The notes under the pieces are model-generated. The model was not told the DNA's origin, did not search any database, and saw only the letters and a program-made list of their open reading frames with translations. DNA of 64,000 nucleotides, from contig NZ_JAUSYC010000001.1 of assembly GCF_030816485.1 (NCBI RefSeq), positions 434,001 to 498,000 on the forward strand, given 5' to 3'. Positions 13,025-18,716 of this stretch are shown here, piece after piece (position 1 is the stretch's first letter; each line of letters starts with the position of its first letter). Both the position numbers and the translations under genes were made by a program. This DNA comes from Arthrobacter sp. B1I2 (GTDB taxonomy: Bacteria > Actinomycetota > Actinomycetes > Actinomycetales > Micrococcaceae).

Positions 13025-13066
13025 GAAGAGGTTCCTTTCAATCCTTGATCATCTACGGCAAATGTA

Positions 13067-13081
13067 CACTAATGATTAGTG
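13067..13081. promoter_or_regulatory. Palindromic operator for the OhrR-like regulator
   Basis: CACTAAT-G-ATTAGTG is a perfect inverted repeat with 7-bp arms. It sits 20 bp before the regulator start and 42 bp before the divergent small gene. Its size and AT content fit MarR-family operators. A further half-like CACTAAC follows at 13082-13088. Confidence 0.6.
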
Positions 13082-13101
13082 CACTAACAATTGGAGGATG
13101 T

Positions 13102-13578
13102 ATGACCGCCACGGTGGCAACGGAAGCAGGAGCGACGGGCGCTGCAGTAGGGGACCAAGACCTGCTGCTGGAACATCAGCTCTGTTTTGCACTGACTGTG
13201 GCCGCCCGCAGTGTGGTGGCGGCCTACAAACCCGTACTCGAGAAACTCAACCTCACACATCCGCAATACCTGGTGATGCTCTGCCTGTGGGAAGACAGCC
13301 CCCGGACTGTGCGGAACATCAGCGAGGCGCTTGCCCAGGAGCCGGCAACCATTTCCCCGCTCCTCCGCAGGCTGGAAGCAGGGGAACTTATTACGCGGCG
13401 CCGCGCGGACGGAAACGAGCGTGCACTCGCCGTCGAACTGACACCCAAAGGCGCCGCCCTGCGGCAACAGGCACTGCAGGTGCCGGGGACCATGATGGAA
13501 CGGCTGGGGCTGACCCGGGAACAGGTCACCGAACTGCACGGGTCCATGATGGCCCTGATCGCTGCCACCTCAGAATGA
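13102..13578 (+). CDS. MarR-family transcriptional regulator, OhrR-like
   Basis: A 158-residue winged-helix regulator. The N-terminal EHQLCFALTVAARSVVAAYKP and LTHPQYLVMLCLWED match OhrR, whose lone N-terminal cysteine (in QLCFAL) is oxidised by organic hydroperoxides. That Cys is kept, and the recognition helix region ALAQEPATISPLLRRLEA follows. A second Cys in VMLCLWED is also present. The ATG at 13102 has GGAGG 4 nt upstream; an ATG at 13098 is in another frame. The usual partner ohr (peroxidase) is not adjacent, so the controlled gene may be the divergent small protein or lie elsewhere. Probably autoregulated through the palindrome upstream. Confidence 0.85.
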   Translation: MTATVATEAGATGAAVGDQDLLLEHQLCFALTVAARSVVAAYKPVLEKLNLTHPQYLVMLCLWEDSPRTVRNISEALAQEPATISPLLRRLEAGELITRRRADGNERALAVELTPKGAALRQQALQVPGTMMERLGLTREQVTELHGSMMALIAATSE

Positions 13579-13656: not shown

Positions 13657-14238
13657 ATGCACAGTTTTCGGATGCTCGCAGCATTCCTGGCAGTCGGCGC
13701 CGGACTAATTTCCGGTTGCAGCGGCACTCCTGACAGCGGCACGTCCGCGTCAACGGCTCCTTCTACGGCCTCCGCCAGCACTTCCTCCCCCGCCGGGAGC
13801 ACTCCCGGCGTCCCTGCCACGCCCTCCGCCGATACCGAAACCTCGTTGCCGGCCCCTGCCCCCGCCACGTCGCGGCCAAGTGCCGGCCCGGGGCAGGGGA
13901 ACGCTGAACTCGCCATCACCGTGGTCCCGTCCCAGGGTGCGGCGGAACTCAACTACACCCTGGTCTGCACCTCCGGCACGCCCGCCGGGGAAAGCAGCCA
14001 CCCCCACGCCGCTGCGGCCTGCGCGGCGCTGAAGGCCAACCCGGGCATTGCGGCTCCGGCGGCGCCGGGAACCTCCCAGCCCTGCACCCAGCAATACGGC
14101 GGCCCCCAGAAGGCAACCGTCACAGGCATGGTGGACGGAGTTGCCGTGGACTCATCCTTCGCGCGGACCAACGGATGCGAAATCAGTACATGGGATGCCG
14201 CCAAGGACGTGTTGGGCGCGGCCGGTGGAGCCTCTTAA
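13657..14238 (+). CDS. Lipoprotein with subtilisin-inhibitor-like (SSI) domain
   Basis: A 193-residue lipoprotein: the signal MHSFRMLAAFLAVGAGLISGC ends in a lipobox, a Ser/Thr/Pro linker runs to about residue 85, then an SSI-like domain follows. The domain has the four family cysteines: LVCTSGTP and HAAAACAAL (first disulfide), then QPCTQQYGG and TNGCEISTW (second). The family binds and blocks subtilisin-type serine proteases. A secreted subtilase gene lies 1.3 kb downstream on the other strand. The ATG at 13657 is preceded by AAGGAGAGG, and TAGACT at 13626-13631 is a likely -10 box. Confidence 0.8.
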   Translation: MHSFRMLAAFLAVGAGLISGCSGTPDSGTSASTAPSTASASTSSPAGSTPGVPATPSADTETSLPAPAPATSRPSAGPGQGNAELAITVVPSQGAAELNYTLVCTSGTPAGESSHPHAAAACAALKANPGIAAPAAPGTSQPCTQQYGGPQKATVTGMVDGVAVDSSFARTNGCEISTWDAAKDVLGAAGGAS

Positions 14239-15148
14239 GCTCCTGCCGGCTGACAGTGCGCGGATGCGGGAAGAAGCCCATATGCAGCGCGTCAGCCGTT
14301 ATGCCGATCCCTACCTTGCCCGCAGGTCGGCTGGGCAGAAACACCCGGTGGAGGATTTTCTCTTCACCTATTACACGCAAAAGCCCGGCCGGCTGAAGCG
14401 CTGGCACCCGGGTTCCGGAGCGGTCCTTACCGGCGGCCAGGCCGCCGCACGGCTGGGGTGGAAGCATTACCGGACGCTCGACGACGGCGAGCTTGCCTTC
14501 CTGGGGCTGGCTGCGGGAAGCACCGCGGTCACCTTCGACCGGCGCGCCTTCCTGGCCGACCGCAGGGATGCGGTTGCCTTTGCCGGCATCATCCTCCGTG
14601 GGACGGCGGCCAGGCCGGCACAGTTCGGCTGCTTCGGCCTGCACGAGTGGGCCATGGTCTACCGCCAGGACAAGTTCGACCTCCGCCATGAATACCTGCA
14701 GCTGCGGCTGGGAGCGGCCGGGACCGACAAGGTGGTGGAGGACAACAGGATCCGCTGCACCCACTTCGACGCGTTCCGGTTCTACACACCGGACGCCATC
14801 CCGCTCAACGAGCATTCCCCCAGCCGGGAATCGCAGCGCCACATGGAGCAGCCGGGTTGCCTGCACGCCAACATGGACCTTTACAAGTGGGCGTACAAGC
14901 TGCTGCCGGCGCTGTCCAGCGAGCTGGTGATGGACTGCTTTGAACTGTCCTGGCGGATCAGGGCCATGGATATGCAGGCCTCCCCGTACGACCTGGCTGA
15001 CTGGGGCTATCCCGCCATTCCCATCGAGACACCCCATGGCAAGGCCGCCTATGTTGAGCACCAGCGCGCATTCGCCGCGGAAGCCGGGGTCCTGCGGGAA
15101 CGGCTCGCCGCCGAGCTCGCGGCCATGCCAGAGGGAGCAACAAGGTGA
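14225..15148 (+). CDS. 3-methyladenine DNA glycosylase-like protein (actinobacterial family)
   Basis: A 307-residue soluble protein of an actinobacterial family usually named 3-methyladenine DNA glycosylase; the activity has not, to my knowledge, been firmly shown. Family blocks are GQKHPVEDFLFTYY and RLKRWHPG near the N-terminus, CFGLHEWAMVYR near residue 140, and THFDAFRFYTPDA near 180. It shows no helix-hairpin-helix-GPD or AAG signature. I chose the GTG at 14225 because the family starts shortly before LPADSARMREEAH; it overlaps the preceding lipoprotein gene by 14 bp. It overlaps the next gene through GTGA, so the two are probably translationally coupled. Confidence 0.7.
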   Translation: MEPLKLLPADSARMREEAHMQRVSRYADPYLARRSAGQKHPVEDFLFTYYTQKPGRLKRWHPGSGAVLTGGQAAARLGWKHYRTLDDGELAFLGLAAGSTAVTFDRRAFLADRRDAVAFAGIILRGTAARPAQFGCFGLHEWAMVYRQDKFDLRHEYLQLRLGAAGTDKVVEDNRIRCTHFDAFRFYTPDAIPLNEHSPSRESQRHMEQPGCLHANMDLYKWAYKLLPALSSELVMDCFELSWRIRAMDMQASPYDLADWGYPAIPIETPHGKAAYVEHQRAFAAEAGVLRERLAAELAAMPEGATR

Positions 15149-15477
15149 TCGACCTGACCATCAGCATCCGGGACGCGCCCGAGGCTCCGGAGCATGTTTT
15201 CCGGCTGGTGGCCATGGACAACGCCCCGGCCGCCGCGACAACGTTGCCCCAACCCGCGGCCGCCTTGGCTGCCGTGGAACGGTTTGGTGAAGACATCTTC
15301 TTTCCCAGGCCCGGACCTCCCAAGCTGTGCACCCAGCAGTACGGCGGGCCGCAGGTTGCCGTGGTCACCGGAACGTTCCATGGGCGCCCTGTCCACTCGA
15401 CCTTCACACGCACCGACGGGTGCGAGATCGCGCGCTGGAAGGCCATGGGCCCCTTACTGGGCGGGACGGCTGCTTAG
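15145..15477 (+). CDS. Cytoplasmic SSI-like protein lacking the first disulfide
   Basis: A 110-residue protein aligned along its length with the SSI domain of the lipoprotein at 13657: LCTQQYGGPQVAVVTG against PCTQQYGGPQKATVTG, and RTDGCEIARW against RTNGCEISTW. It has no signal peptide. The two cysteines of the first SSI disulfide are replaced (LVC becomes LVA, and the AACAAL Cys becomes Leu), while the second pair is kept. It begins at a GTG overlapping the stop of the glycosylase-like gene. Its role is unknown; it may be an inhibitor-fold protein reused inside the cell. Confidence 0.75.
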   Translation: MIDLTISIRDAPEAPEHVFRLVAMDNAPAAATTLPQPAAALAAVERFGEDIFFPRPGPPKLCTQQYGGPQVAVVTGTFHGRPVHSTFTRTDGCEIARWKAMGPLLGGTAA

Positions 15478-15568: not shown

Positions 15569-18500
15569 TCAGGTTGCGGGTACCGCCTGGGCCAGGTCAA
15601 GCTGGGGAGCGCCTGCCGGGGCGGGAGCAGAGCCCTGTCCCACCTGCACGTTTACCCAGGTCTTGATGCCGTTGCTGCCAAGGCTCAGCCGTGAGAGGTA
15701 TGACCCCTCGGAGAGCCCCGTCCAGCTAAGGGTGGCCGAGGTGGCGGTTCCGTTCGGCGCCACGATGGGGTTCGGGTCCACCGTGAGGTTGCCGGCGTCA
15801 CCGGCGAAGGTCACGGCCTGGACCGAAGCAGTGGCGGGCCCGTTGTCCGGTGTGGCGTACAGGTTGGCCACCACGTAGTAGGTGCCGGGCCGCGGTGATT
15901 CCAGGTCCAGGAATTCGCTGGCCGATGCCGTGGCCACCTGGGTGGCGGTCAGCCCGCCCGCGGCGTTCGGTGCGTAGACCACCATGTCCCAGTCGACGTC
16001 GTTCGACTGTGCCTGGATGCCCAGCCGGGCAAACGAGGCACCGGCAGGCACCTTGACCTGGACCAGGGCGTTGTGAGCGTCATTCGTGGGCGCGTACTCG
16101 CCCGGGGTCTTGGTGATGGCGGTCTGGCTCAGCGGCGCCAGGCCCTCCACGCCCACAGCGATGGGGCTGTCCGAACCGGAGACGAGTTCCATGGAACCGC
16201 TGCCGGTGCCCGCGGCCGAGCTGAAGGAGAATGACGGCGCGATCTGGGCGTCAACGGGGCGGACGGCGATCGGTGACGTCACCGTCCGGGGGCCCTTCCA
16301 GGTGAGGCTGCCCGTGCTGAACTTGCCCACCGGCGCGCTGACGTTCCGGATGGTTACGGTGACTTCACGGGTCTGGTTGGCTTTGGCGAAGTTCAGCGTC
16401 TTGGGTTCGACGTTGACGTTGAAGCCCGGCATGTTCACCTCGGGGCGGTACATGCCCGCCACCAGGGCGGTCAGCTTGCGCTTGACCTGGACTTCCCCCC
16501 ACCAGGCTGCCCAGCGCGATGGAGGGCAGGTTGAGGTCGCGGGCGGCAATGGTGCCGGCCTGCGGGGCCCCGGTCTCAACACCTTGACCGTTCAGGAAGC
16601 CAAGCCAGTCCTGGATGCCGGAGTCATAGACCAGGCCCGCGTCGAGGACGCGGGTCGAATCGATGTGGCCGGCGCCGCCCTGGAACGGGTCGGTGTTGGG
16701 TGACCCGTCGGCGTTGACCAACGGATAGGCGGTGGTCATCATGGCGGACTTCACCATGGCGGGGGTCCACTTCGGCTGCTTGCCCAGCACCAGGGCACCG
16801 AAACCGGCAATGTGCGGTGCGGCCATGGAGGTGCCGGACATGAATCCGAACTGGTCGCCGTCGTTGCCGATCGTGGAGACACCGGCCAGGACGTTCACGC
16901 CCGGGGCGGAGATGTCCGGCTTGAGCAGGTCGCCGCCGGATGCGAGGGTGGGTCCGCGGGAAGAGAAGCCGGCGATCTGGGGCGATGCGGCCGGAGGCAG
17001 GCCGGTCAGGTCGCCCTTGACCAGGCTGACCGTGAACGCGGGATTGGCTTCCAGCTTGGACTTCAGTTCCAGGCTCTTGGGAGCGTTGACGTGGATGGTG
17101 GGGATAACGTGGTTGTCTGCGTCCTCGGAGCTGCTGGTGAGGTTCACCAGGATCATGCCCACGCCGCCCTTGTCCAGGACTTCCTGGCTCTTGGCGGTCC
17201 GGTCAACCACGCCGCGGTCGCAGACCACAACTTTGCCGGCCACCTTGGTGGCGTCAAGGGTTCCCGGGCCGCAAAGGTTGGGGTTTGCAGCACCCGGGGC
17301 GGCAGCGGCGGCAGCCAGGACAACCGGCTTGTCCGCCACTTCCGACTTCATGATGGAGGCGCCGCGGTACAGCGATCCGTCAGATACCTTGACCGTTCCC
17401 AGCAGGTCGCTGGGGAAGGTGGAAGCAGCCACGGTGGTCAGCCACGGTGAAGCATGGTTGACGGTGGAGGCTGCAGGACCGGAGTTTCCAGCCGACGCAG
17501 AAACGAAGACGCCGGCTGCTGCAGCGTTCAGGAACGCCAGCGCCACGGGATCGGTCGTGCTGTCGTTGTTGCCCGAGATGGAGTAATTCAGGACATCCAC
17601 GCCGTCCTTGACGGCTGCATCCACGGCCTCAACCGATGCTGACGAGTAGCAGCCGCCGGTGTCCGGGTTGGTGTCCTCCCAGCAGACTTTGTACACCGAG
17701 ACCTTGGCCGCCGGGGCCACACCCGAGCTCCTTCCGAAGCTGGTCCCGTCGATCACCTGCTCGACATTGGCGTTGCCGGCTGCCGTGGTGGCGGTGTGGG
17801 TGCCATGGCTGCCGACGTCCACCGGGGAAATCTGCTCTTCCGGCGCCCGCTTTCCCGGTGCAACGTACTCAAGGAAGGTATCGGCGAAGTAGCGGGCGCC
17901 GATGACCTTGGAATTGCAGAGCGAGCCGTCATAGGCCGCCCCGGTTCCCTCACCCTTTTGGCATTCGCCCTGGAAGGTGGTGCCGTCCGCCTTGAGCATG
18001 GAGATCCTGCCGTCGCCCGTGCGGTAGGGGACGCCAACCTGCGGGGCGCCCTGAAGCGGCTTCACCGGTTCGCCTTGCAGGAAGGGGTTATCCGGTGCGT
18101 AGCCGGAGTCGATGACACCCACCACCACGCCCTTGCCGGCATTGGCTTCGCCGCCGAACTGCTTGGCCCAGGCGCCTTCAGGGCCGGTGAGCTTGAGGAA
18201 GTCGGTGGTGGTGTAGTCGGGCTTGTTCTCGACGTCGGGGGCTACCACCAGGACTCGGGTGTCCTTGGACAATGCCGAGGCCTGAGCCGCGGTCAGCTCC
18301 GCCGCGAACCCGTTAAGGGCTGCAGTGTATTGCTTGGCCGGGCTGACACCCTGGGCCGCTGCAACGTCACGCTGCTGCTTGCGCAGGTGGGCGTCGTAGG
18401 CCTGGTAGTTGGGGCTCCCGGCGTCGAGCTTCCTGCCCTGCTGCGGCTTGGTGGCGCCCAGCCCGGCCGCTCCCCCTTCGTATGCCGCGGCAGCCGGACC

Positions 18501-18701
18501 GGCAAGTACCACGATGTACCGGCCGTCCTTGAACTGACTGTCCTTTGCGCTGGAGGAGGCATTCTCCGCGCCCTGGCCCCCGGGTGCCGCGGAAGCGGGA
18601 CCTATTGCCAGGGAGCTAAGGAGAAGGGGCAACCCGACAGCCAGCGCGGCCGCTTTCCGGAGTCCCCCGGCCCGCGAGGGGCTCTTTCCAGTTGATTTCA
18701 C
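15569..18701 (-). pseudogene. Secreted S8 subtilase with PA domain, split by a frameshift
   Basis: A subtilisin-like serine protease of about 1040 residues if repaired. In order: a signal peptide (AALAVGLPLLLSSLAIGPASA), an I9 propeptide (YIVVLAGPAAAAYEG), catalytic Asp in VVVGVIDSGYAPDNP (about residue 198), His in GSHGTHTATTAAGN (about 300), an inserted PA domain (KVAGKVVVCDRGVV, about 480), catalytic Ser in GFMSGTSMAAPHIAG (about 630), then a fibronectin-III-like part and a C-terminal domain. The frame breaks in a run of six G (minus strand, 16500-16495): upstream reads LGSLVGGSPG, while removing one G restores LVGEVQVKRKLTALVAG. The first frame ends at 16365; the second covers 15569-16582. 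This is either a sequencing error or a real inactivation. The GTG at 18701 has AAAGGG upstream. Confidence 0.85.
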
Positions 18702-18716
18702 GTGCAACCCTTTCAC

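Follow-up and report, generated by a model that had tools for sequence, protein, structure and literature searches.

Inhibitors of the Streptomyces subtilisin inhibitor (SSI) family are known as secreted proteins held together by disulfide bonds. The staphostatins and Spi have folds unrelated to that of SSI, and staphostatin B reportedly acts in the cytosol, to judge from the title of a 2005 paper by Shaw. The inhibitor genes of staphostatins and Spi are described as adjoining those of secreted proteases (staphopain and SpeB, respectively), and it has been suggested that such inhibitors protect the cell when the protease is in the wrong place (PMC2873492). IPI (BsuPI) of Bacillus subtilis has been proposed as an intracellular subtilisin inhibitor, in a paper that describes intracellular inhibitors as rare (PMC3901451). 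According to the same paper, IPI has an Ig-like fold and belongs to a family unrelated to SSI, its target Isp1 is intracellular, and the location of IPI itself has been questioned (PMC3901451). Apart from SSI itself, subtilisin inhibitors are reported to conserve Thr at P2 (PMC9623506).

Here we describe a locus of Arthrobacter sp. B1I2 in which an SSI-family lipoprotein is accompanied by a short, apparently cytosolic SSI homologue, with a secreted subtilase next to them. By analogy, the locus may share with the staphostatin and Spi systems the proposed principle that the gene of an inhibitor adjoins that of a secreted protease, an arrangement seen here in 22 of 26 genomes. Staphostatins and Spi differ in their unrelated fold, in their cysteine-protease targets and in being co-transcribed with the protease, whereas the subtilase gene here is convergent. 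Among the titles listed from the open-licence literature, none dealt with a cytosolic member of the SSI family or with the locus described here.

Organisation of the locus

The window analysed is a stretch of 64,000 nucleotides from a genome of 4.68 Mb. Three genes lie on its plus strand in the following order: the SSI-family lipoprotein (13657..14238), a conserved actinobacterial protein (14225..15148, hereafter the 14225 gene) and the short SSI homologue (15145..15477). Within this trio each start overlaps the end of the preceding gene. They are followed by the convergent gene of an exported subtilase on the minus strand. The coordinates and reading frames of a first-pass annotation, made from the letters alone, were checked and are right. 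Its central observation, a pair of SSI proteins, one exported and one apparently cytosolic, next to a subtilase, was confirmed by sequence and domain matches. A MarR/OhrR-type regulator is encoded at 13045-13578, directly upstream of the lipoprotein gene.

The lipoprotein and its short paralogue

The lipoprotein gene begins at an ATG after AAAGGAGAGG. Residues 85-165 of its product match PF00720 with 27.9 bits, above the curated Pfam cut-off of 23.9. The protein has the lipobox ISGC and a Ser/Thr/Pro-rich linker, and its four cysteines align with those of the SSI chains in the PDB, as had been claimed at first reading. Both conserved cysteine pairs and an export signal (hydropathy rule and lipobox) are present. 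Its closest relatives are YGGP-type SSI proteins of other actinobacteria, whose loop is identical. As suggested at first reading, it may plausibly guard the cell surface against the cell's own protease.

The 15145 gene starts with GTG and overlaps the stop of the 14225 gene by four nucleotides. Its product matches PF00720 over profile positions 7-85 of 92 with 17.9 bits and an E value of 0.0032, which does not reach the cut-off of 23.9. A profile of 61 sequences, composed of 60 from the 15145 protein and its relatives plus the lipoprotein domain of the window, matched SSI-family chains in the PDB, the best E value being 6.2e-4 for ScNPI. Since the protein is a paralogue of a PF00720 member and its profile matches solved SSI chains, its homology to the SSI family is clear; 521 homologues were found.

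The homologous domain is of near full length, and the P3 cysteine, P1 and the C-terminal cysteine are aligned with those of SSI. In this alignment Cys62 is P3 and Gln64 is P1, and the stretch of Cys62 and Thr-Gln-Gln-Tyr (P2 to P2') is encoded at 15328..15342 of the plus strand, as are the residues named next. The partner of Cys62 in the second SSI cysteine pair is Cys93 (15421..15423; SSI Cys101). The positions of the lipoprotein's first pair are occupied by Ala23 (15211..15213; site of SSI Cys35) and Leu41 (15265..15267; site of SSI Cys50). Compared with SSI, the 15145 protein has one disulfide and the signal peptide fewer, a Pfam score below the cut-off, Gln at P1 and, following P2', an additional residue (YGGP where SSI has YDP). 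Two cysteine pairs and secretion mark the SSI family; the 15145 protein has one pair and, by the hydropathy rule, no export signal, and seven of the 26 paralogues introduced below are exported. Alignment and hydropathy thus agree with the earlier description of the second protein, in which the signal peptide is missing, Ala and Leu replace the first pair and the second pair is kept.

The possibility that translation starts further upstream and adds a signal peptide was considered and rejected, because the open frames 5' of the domain contained no hydrophobic stretch in 19 of the 19 copies called cytosolic. In one of these, from genome G187, the upstream frame matched a loose lipobox pattern. 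Among the best 80 of the 304 named loci, a hydrophobic stretch occurred in one of the 77 short proteins of the usable loci.

Distribution and origin of the paralogue

With the 15145 protein as query, an SSI-like match was found in 108 of 197 Micrococcaceae genomes, and the hit regions of the window's own genome and of the 107 others were examined. Genera are referred to by number (g1, g4, g7 and so on), g1 being the genus of the window. In total, 127 SSI domains were recovered from 107 genomes, all of the 108 except G077, whose short match the profile did not recover. All four cysteines are retained in 100 rows, and all but one of these carry an export signal by the hydropathy rule. The lipoprotein row G039, which stops at a contig end and was scored cytosolic by the rule, was counted as a lipoprotein. 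Export was called throughout from the hydropathy rule and the lipobox, without a signal-peptide program.

The paralogue without the first disulfide is present in 26 of the 197 family genomes, one per genome (12 of 12 in g1, one in g18, four in g19, seven in g24 and two in g28). The first cysteine pair is missing in 26 of 26 paralogue rows and in none of the 100 four-cysteine lipoprotein rows of the Micrococcaceae sample, the outlier row G097b (a second match in G097) being excluded. Therefore, its loss is no chance event. An export signal is absent by the hydropathy rule in 19 of the 26 paralogues, that of the window included, and these predicted cytosolic copies come from g1, g18, g19 and g28. 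The seven paralogues of g24 are all lipoproteins themselves. Each of the 19 cytosolic copies has a four-cysteine lipoprotein at the same locus; the seven exported copies have none there, and their genomes hold one SSI match each. The pattern is at most one inhibitor per compartment.

In the 127-row tree calculated from all columns, the rows of the 26 paralogues fall into a single group with support of 100/91. In a quick tree without the four cysteine columns two changes are needed instead of one, and the starred branches force one. Therefore, the support for the group comes partly from the cysteine columns. A possible single origin of the cytosolic form, with a single loss of the signal peptide, was not rejected by the AU test (p 0.352).

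For comparison outside the family, 40 loci with mostly weak-to-middling matches were chosen from 63 SSI-positive genomes of the class, two of which belong to the family, and were scored with a profile of the Micrococcaceae SSI domains. At 31 of the 40 loci, 32 domains of at least 40 bits were found, and 32 of 32 have an export-type hydrophobic stretch. Four cysteines lie inside the trimmed domain in 31 of the 32, and in the remaining one the fourth lies just outside. Of the nine remaining loci, six had weak matches, which were of classical SSI type, and three had no match. No cytosolic copy is therefore found among the 32 scored domains representing YGGP-type SSI proteins elsewhere in actinobacteria, and the cytosolic, disulfide-poor SSI branch is a Micrococcaceae speciality in this sample.

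Relation to the 14225 gene

The 14225 protein bears the database name '3-methyladenine DNA glycosylase' and was called glycosylase-like in the first-pass annotation. Searches of Pfam, NCBIfam and the PDB sequences yielded nothing for it at E 0.001, so that this label finds no family support. None of the glycosylase models in Pfam was matched by 68 14225-type proteins of the family, and their profile matched no PDB chain. At least about 8000 homologues are among the matches listed. They make up a large family of actinobacterial proteins that is strongly conserved, with CFGxHEWAMV, CxHxDAxRF and CLHAxMDxY among its invariant motifs.

It had been proposed that the inner SSI protein was reused as a partner of the 14225 protein, and a role as its partner or regulator can be weighed by the company that the two genes keep. 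They adjoin in 17 of the 26 genomes, those of g1, g18 and g19. At loci with a simple gene pattern among the best 80 of the 304 named, the start of the short gene overlaps the 14225 stop in 72 of 77 cases. The claimed translational coupling thus stands for these Arthrobacter loci. However, it does not extend to the nine genomes of g24 and g28, in which the two genes are apart. Seven of these paralogues lie beside the subtilase alone. The other two, of g28, overlap the lipoprotein gene, whose stop is overlapped by the ATG of the short gene by four bases, and this pair is located elsewhere in the genome. Because of these nine genomes, a partnership with the 14225 gene as a general rule was ruled out.

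The survey that had been suggested, of whether both genes stay together in relatives, therefore gave a positive answer within part of the family only. Of the 197 family genomes, 193 have the 14225 gene, and most of these lack the paralogue. The gene also occurs in 123 of 246 genomes of the class, two of the 123 being from Micrococcaceae. At 20 of 20 non-family loci taken from the 123, each 11-13.5 kb long, neither an S8 nor an SSI gene lies near it. Up to nine of these 20 loci (L282-L301) have a glutamyl-tRNA synthetase-like gene near the 14225-type gene, as judged by eye.

Divergence was compared over 11 g1 genomes. The distances of the short protein correlate with those of the 14225 protein (r 0.82), the lipoprotein (0.77) and the subtilase (0.51). 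When the 14225 protein is accounted for, the partial correlation with the subtilase is -0.02. The co-divergence with the 14225 protein speaks for a partnership, but vertical inheritance at one locus also predicts it. We consider the partner role improbable. To all appearances the inner copy is maintained for its own sake and is not dedicated to the 14225 gene. The latter, which is enzyme-like, may quite possibly be older and independent, with the SSI pair fitted into its operon.

Relation to the subtilase

A secreted subtilase on the opposite strand, as first noted, is present. It is encoded at 16365..18716 of the minus strand and has an I9 propeptide, an S8 catalytic and a PA domain. The nearest solved chains are 7eox (Protease), 3vta (Cucumisin) and 3i6s (Subtilisin-like protease). 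Its frame changes near 16497, 3' of the catalytic domain, and the C-terminal part continues in another frame (15569..16582, minus strand). A 1066-aa protein of a relative matches the window subtilase in one frame as far as residue 758 and, beyond it, in a different frame. Because the frame changes after the catalytic domain, the window subtilase may be altered, unless the change is an assembly error.

The convergent subtilase adjoins the paralogue in 22 of the 26 genomes, the exceptions being g18, g28 and G137. It is present somewhere in the genome in 23 of the 26; in G137 it is about 16 kb off. The one g18 and the two g28 genomes that have the paralogue show no such subtilase at E 1e-60. Among the best 80 of the 304 named loci, 76 have the convergent subtilase, and three of the other four reach a contig end. 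At several Arthrobacter loci (L034, L036, L039 and several of L239-L257) a second, more distant subtilase lies upstream of the lipoprotein gene, so that some Arthrobacter SSI blocks are flanked by two subtilases.

This linkage could merely reflect shared ancestry of the locus, with the SSI proteins and the subtilase as neighbours of no functional consequence, because the pair of 14225 gene and subtilase occurs also without any SSI. In g4 and g14, which have no SSI matches, the 14225 gene is beside the subtilase at 14 of 14 fetched loci, drawn from the 18 subtilase-bearing genomes of those genera. The four-cysteine lipoprotein is also common without this subtilase, for example in g22 and g23. 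The ten g24 genomes examined tell against such an explanation. Seven of them have the subtilase together with the paralogue and three have neither, although the 14225 gene lies elsewhere. We give mere neighbourhood little credence.

An intracellular subtilisin as target was sought in the window's own genome. Five S8 proteases were found there, all with signal-peptide-like N-termini by eye. Therefore, no intracellular subtilisin target was found among them.

Reactive site and possible function

The median dN/dS, taken over pairs with dS of 0.1-1.0 from 78 loci, is 0.28 for the short protein (851 pairs), 0.27 for the lipoprotein domain (879) and 0.14 for the 14225 gene (1306). The paralogue is under purifying selection. 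A degenerate gene is ruled out by this value and by the invariant reactive stretch in g1, where P2-P2' of the short protein is Thr-Gln-Gln-Tyr in 12 of 12 genomes and the remainder is 62% identical. In contrast, P2-P2' of the 12 g1 lipoproteins varies (78% identical, against 58% for the remainder). The invariance of the inner copy is suggestive only, because P2-P2' of the g7 lipoproteins is equally invariant (7/7). The pair made of the P3 cysteine and its partner (the Cys62-Cys93 type) is retained in 22 of the 26 paralogues.

The other genera are less uniform. In g24 the reactive site is variable, with Asp at P1 in four of seven copies. All four SSI cysteines are lost in four of the four g19 copies (L044-L047), and at least three of these have a short insertion. 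The reactive loop contains Pro, which aligns with P1 in all four. Judged by these residues, the standard mechanism seems closed to the g19 copies, which would be poor canonical inhibitors.

A tentative explanation, which we favour, is that the inner SSI copy serves as a cytosolic guard against protease that has not yet been exported. Within Micrococcaceae, the Arthrobacter branch would have seen a duplication of the lipoprotein-SSI gene of this locus. One copy would then have been deprived of the first disulfide and, in the majority of genomes, of the signal peptide, both of which are seen as absent in the sequences, and it would have been retained by the selection measured above. If it is still an inhibitor, the inner copy might bind, through the SSI reactive loop Thr-Gln-Gln-Tyr, a secreted subtilase that folds or becomes active before export. 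The lipoprotein might do likewise on the outer face, and the pair would guard both sides of the membrane. The likeliest target would be the adjacent convergent subtilase, and the other exported S8 proteases are possible ones.

The guard is favoured by the supported group of 26, by the lipoprotein that accompanies every cytosolic copy and is missing beside the seven exported ones, and by the adjoining subtilase, with the joint presence and absence in g24. The invariant loop of g1, the retention of just the P3 cysteine pair and the low dN/dS point in the same direction, as do the signal-like N-termini of the five S8 proteases found and the precedent of staphostatin and Spi. On the other side stand the three genomes without the subtilase, the divergence that tracks the 14225 protein, the reactive stretch that stays unchanged beside subtilases of two clades in g1, the g19 copies with none of the SSI cysteines and with Pro at P1, and the Asp at P1 in four of the seven g24 copies. 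The subtilase gene is on the opposite strand and is not co-transcribed, and the loop is invariant in the g7 lipoproteins as well. Oxidation of the remaining cysteine pair is not normally expected in the cytosol, which also counts against the guard.

A more elaborate version is doubtful. In it, the cytosolic SSI and its lipoprotein twin would form a two-compartment guard, the disulfide loss would be an adaptation to the reducing compartment, and the remaining cysteine pair would possibly make the inhibitor redox-sensitive.

Part of the same evidence could be read differently, with the inner copy being no protease inhibitor and its SSI fold a binding module for another cytosolic partner. One or both disulfides and export have been lost, to the point of the g19 copies. 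The subtilases beside the SSI pair in g1 fall into two clades in a quick tree, yet the reactive stretch, P1 included, is unchanged. The paralogue occurs without the subtilase in three of 26 genomes, and its divergence does not track that of the subtilase. Against a repurposed scaffold speak the invariance of P2-P2' in g1, with the Thr at P2 of most subtilisin inhibitors, the cysteine at P3 that 22 of 26 paralogues keep together with its partner, and the exported copy that adjoins the subtilase in seven of seven g24 genomes. We regard repurposing as possible but rather unlikely.

The phylogenetic pattern is clean and testable, while the proposed function is inferential. With its traceable loss of signal peptide and disulfides, the maintained cytosolic branch makes up a natural series of SSI proteins with four, two and no SSI cysteines, inside and outside the cell, which could become a testbed for the adaptation of a canonical inhibitor to the cytosol. 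The series could also show whether bacteria guard against the subtilases they make both inside and outside the membrane.

A variant arrangement is seen in g28. At L048 and L049 the two SSI genes form a two-gene unit with neither the 14225 gene nor a subtilase, near a galU-like gene by eye. Their SSI copies cluster with Arthrobacter copies in the tree, as if the unit had moved from an Arthrobacter-type locus.
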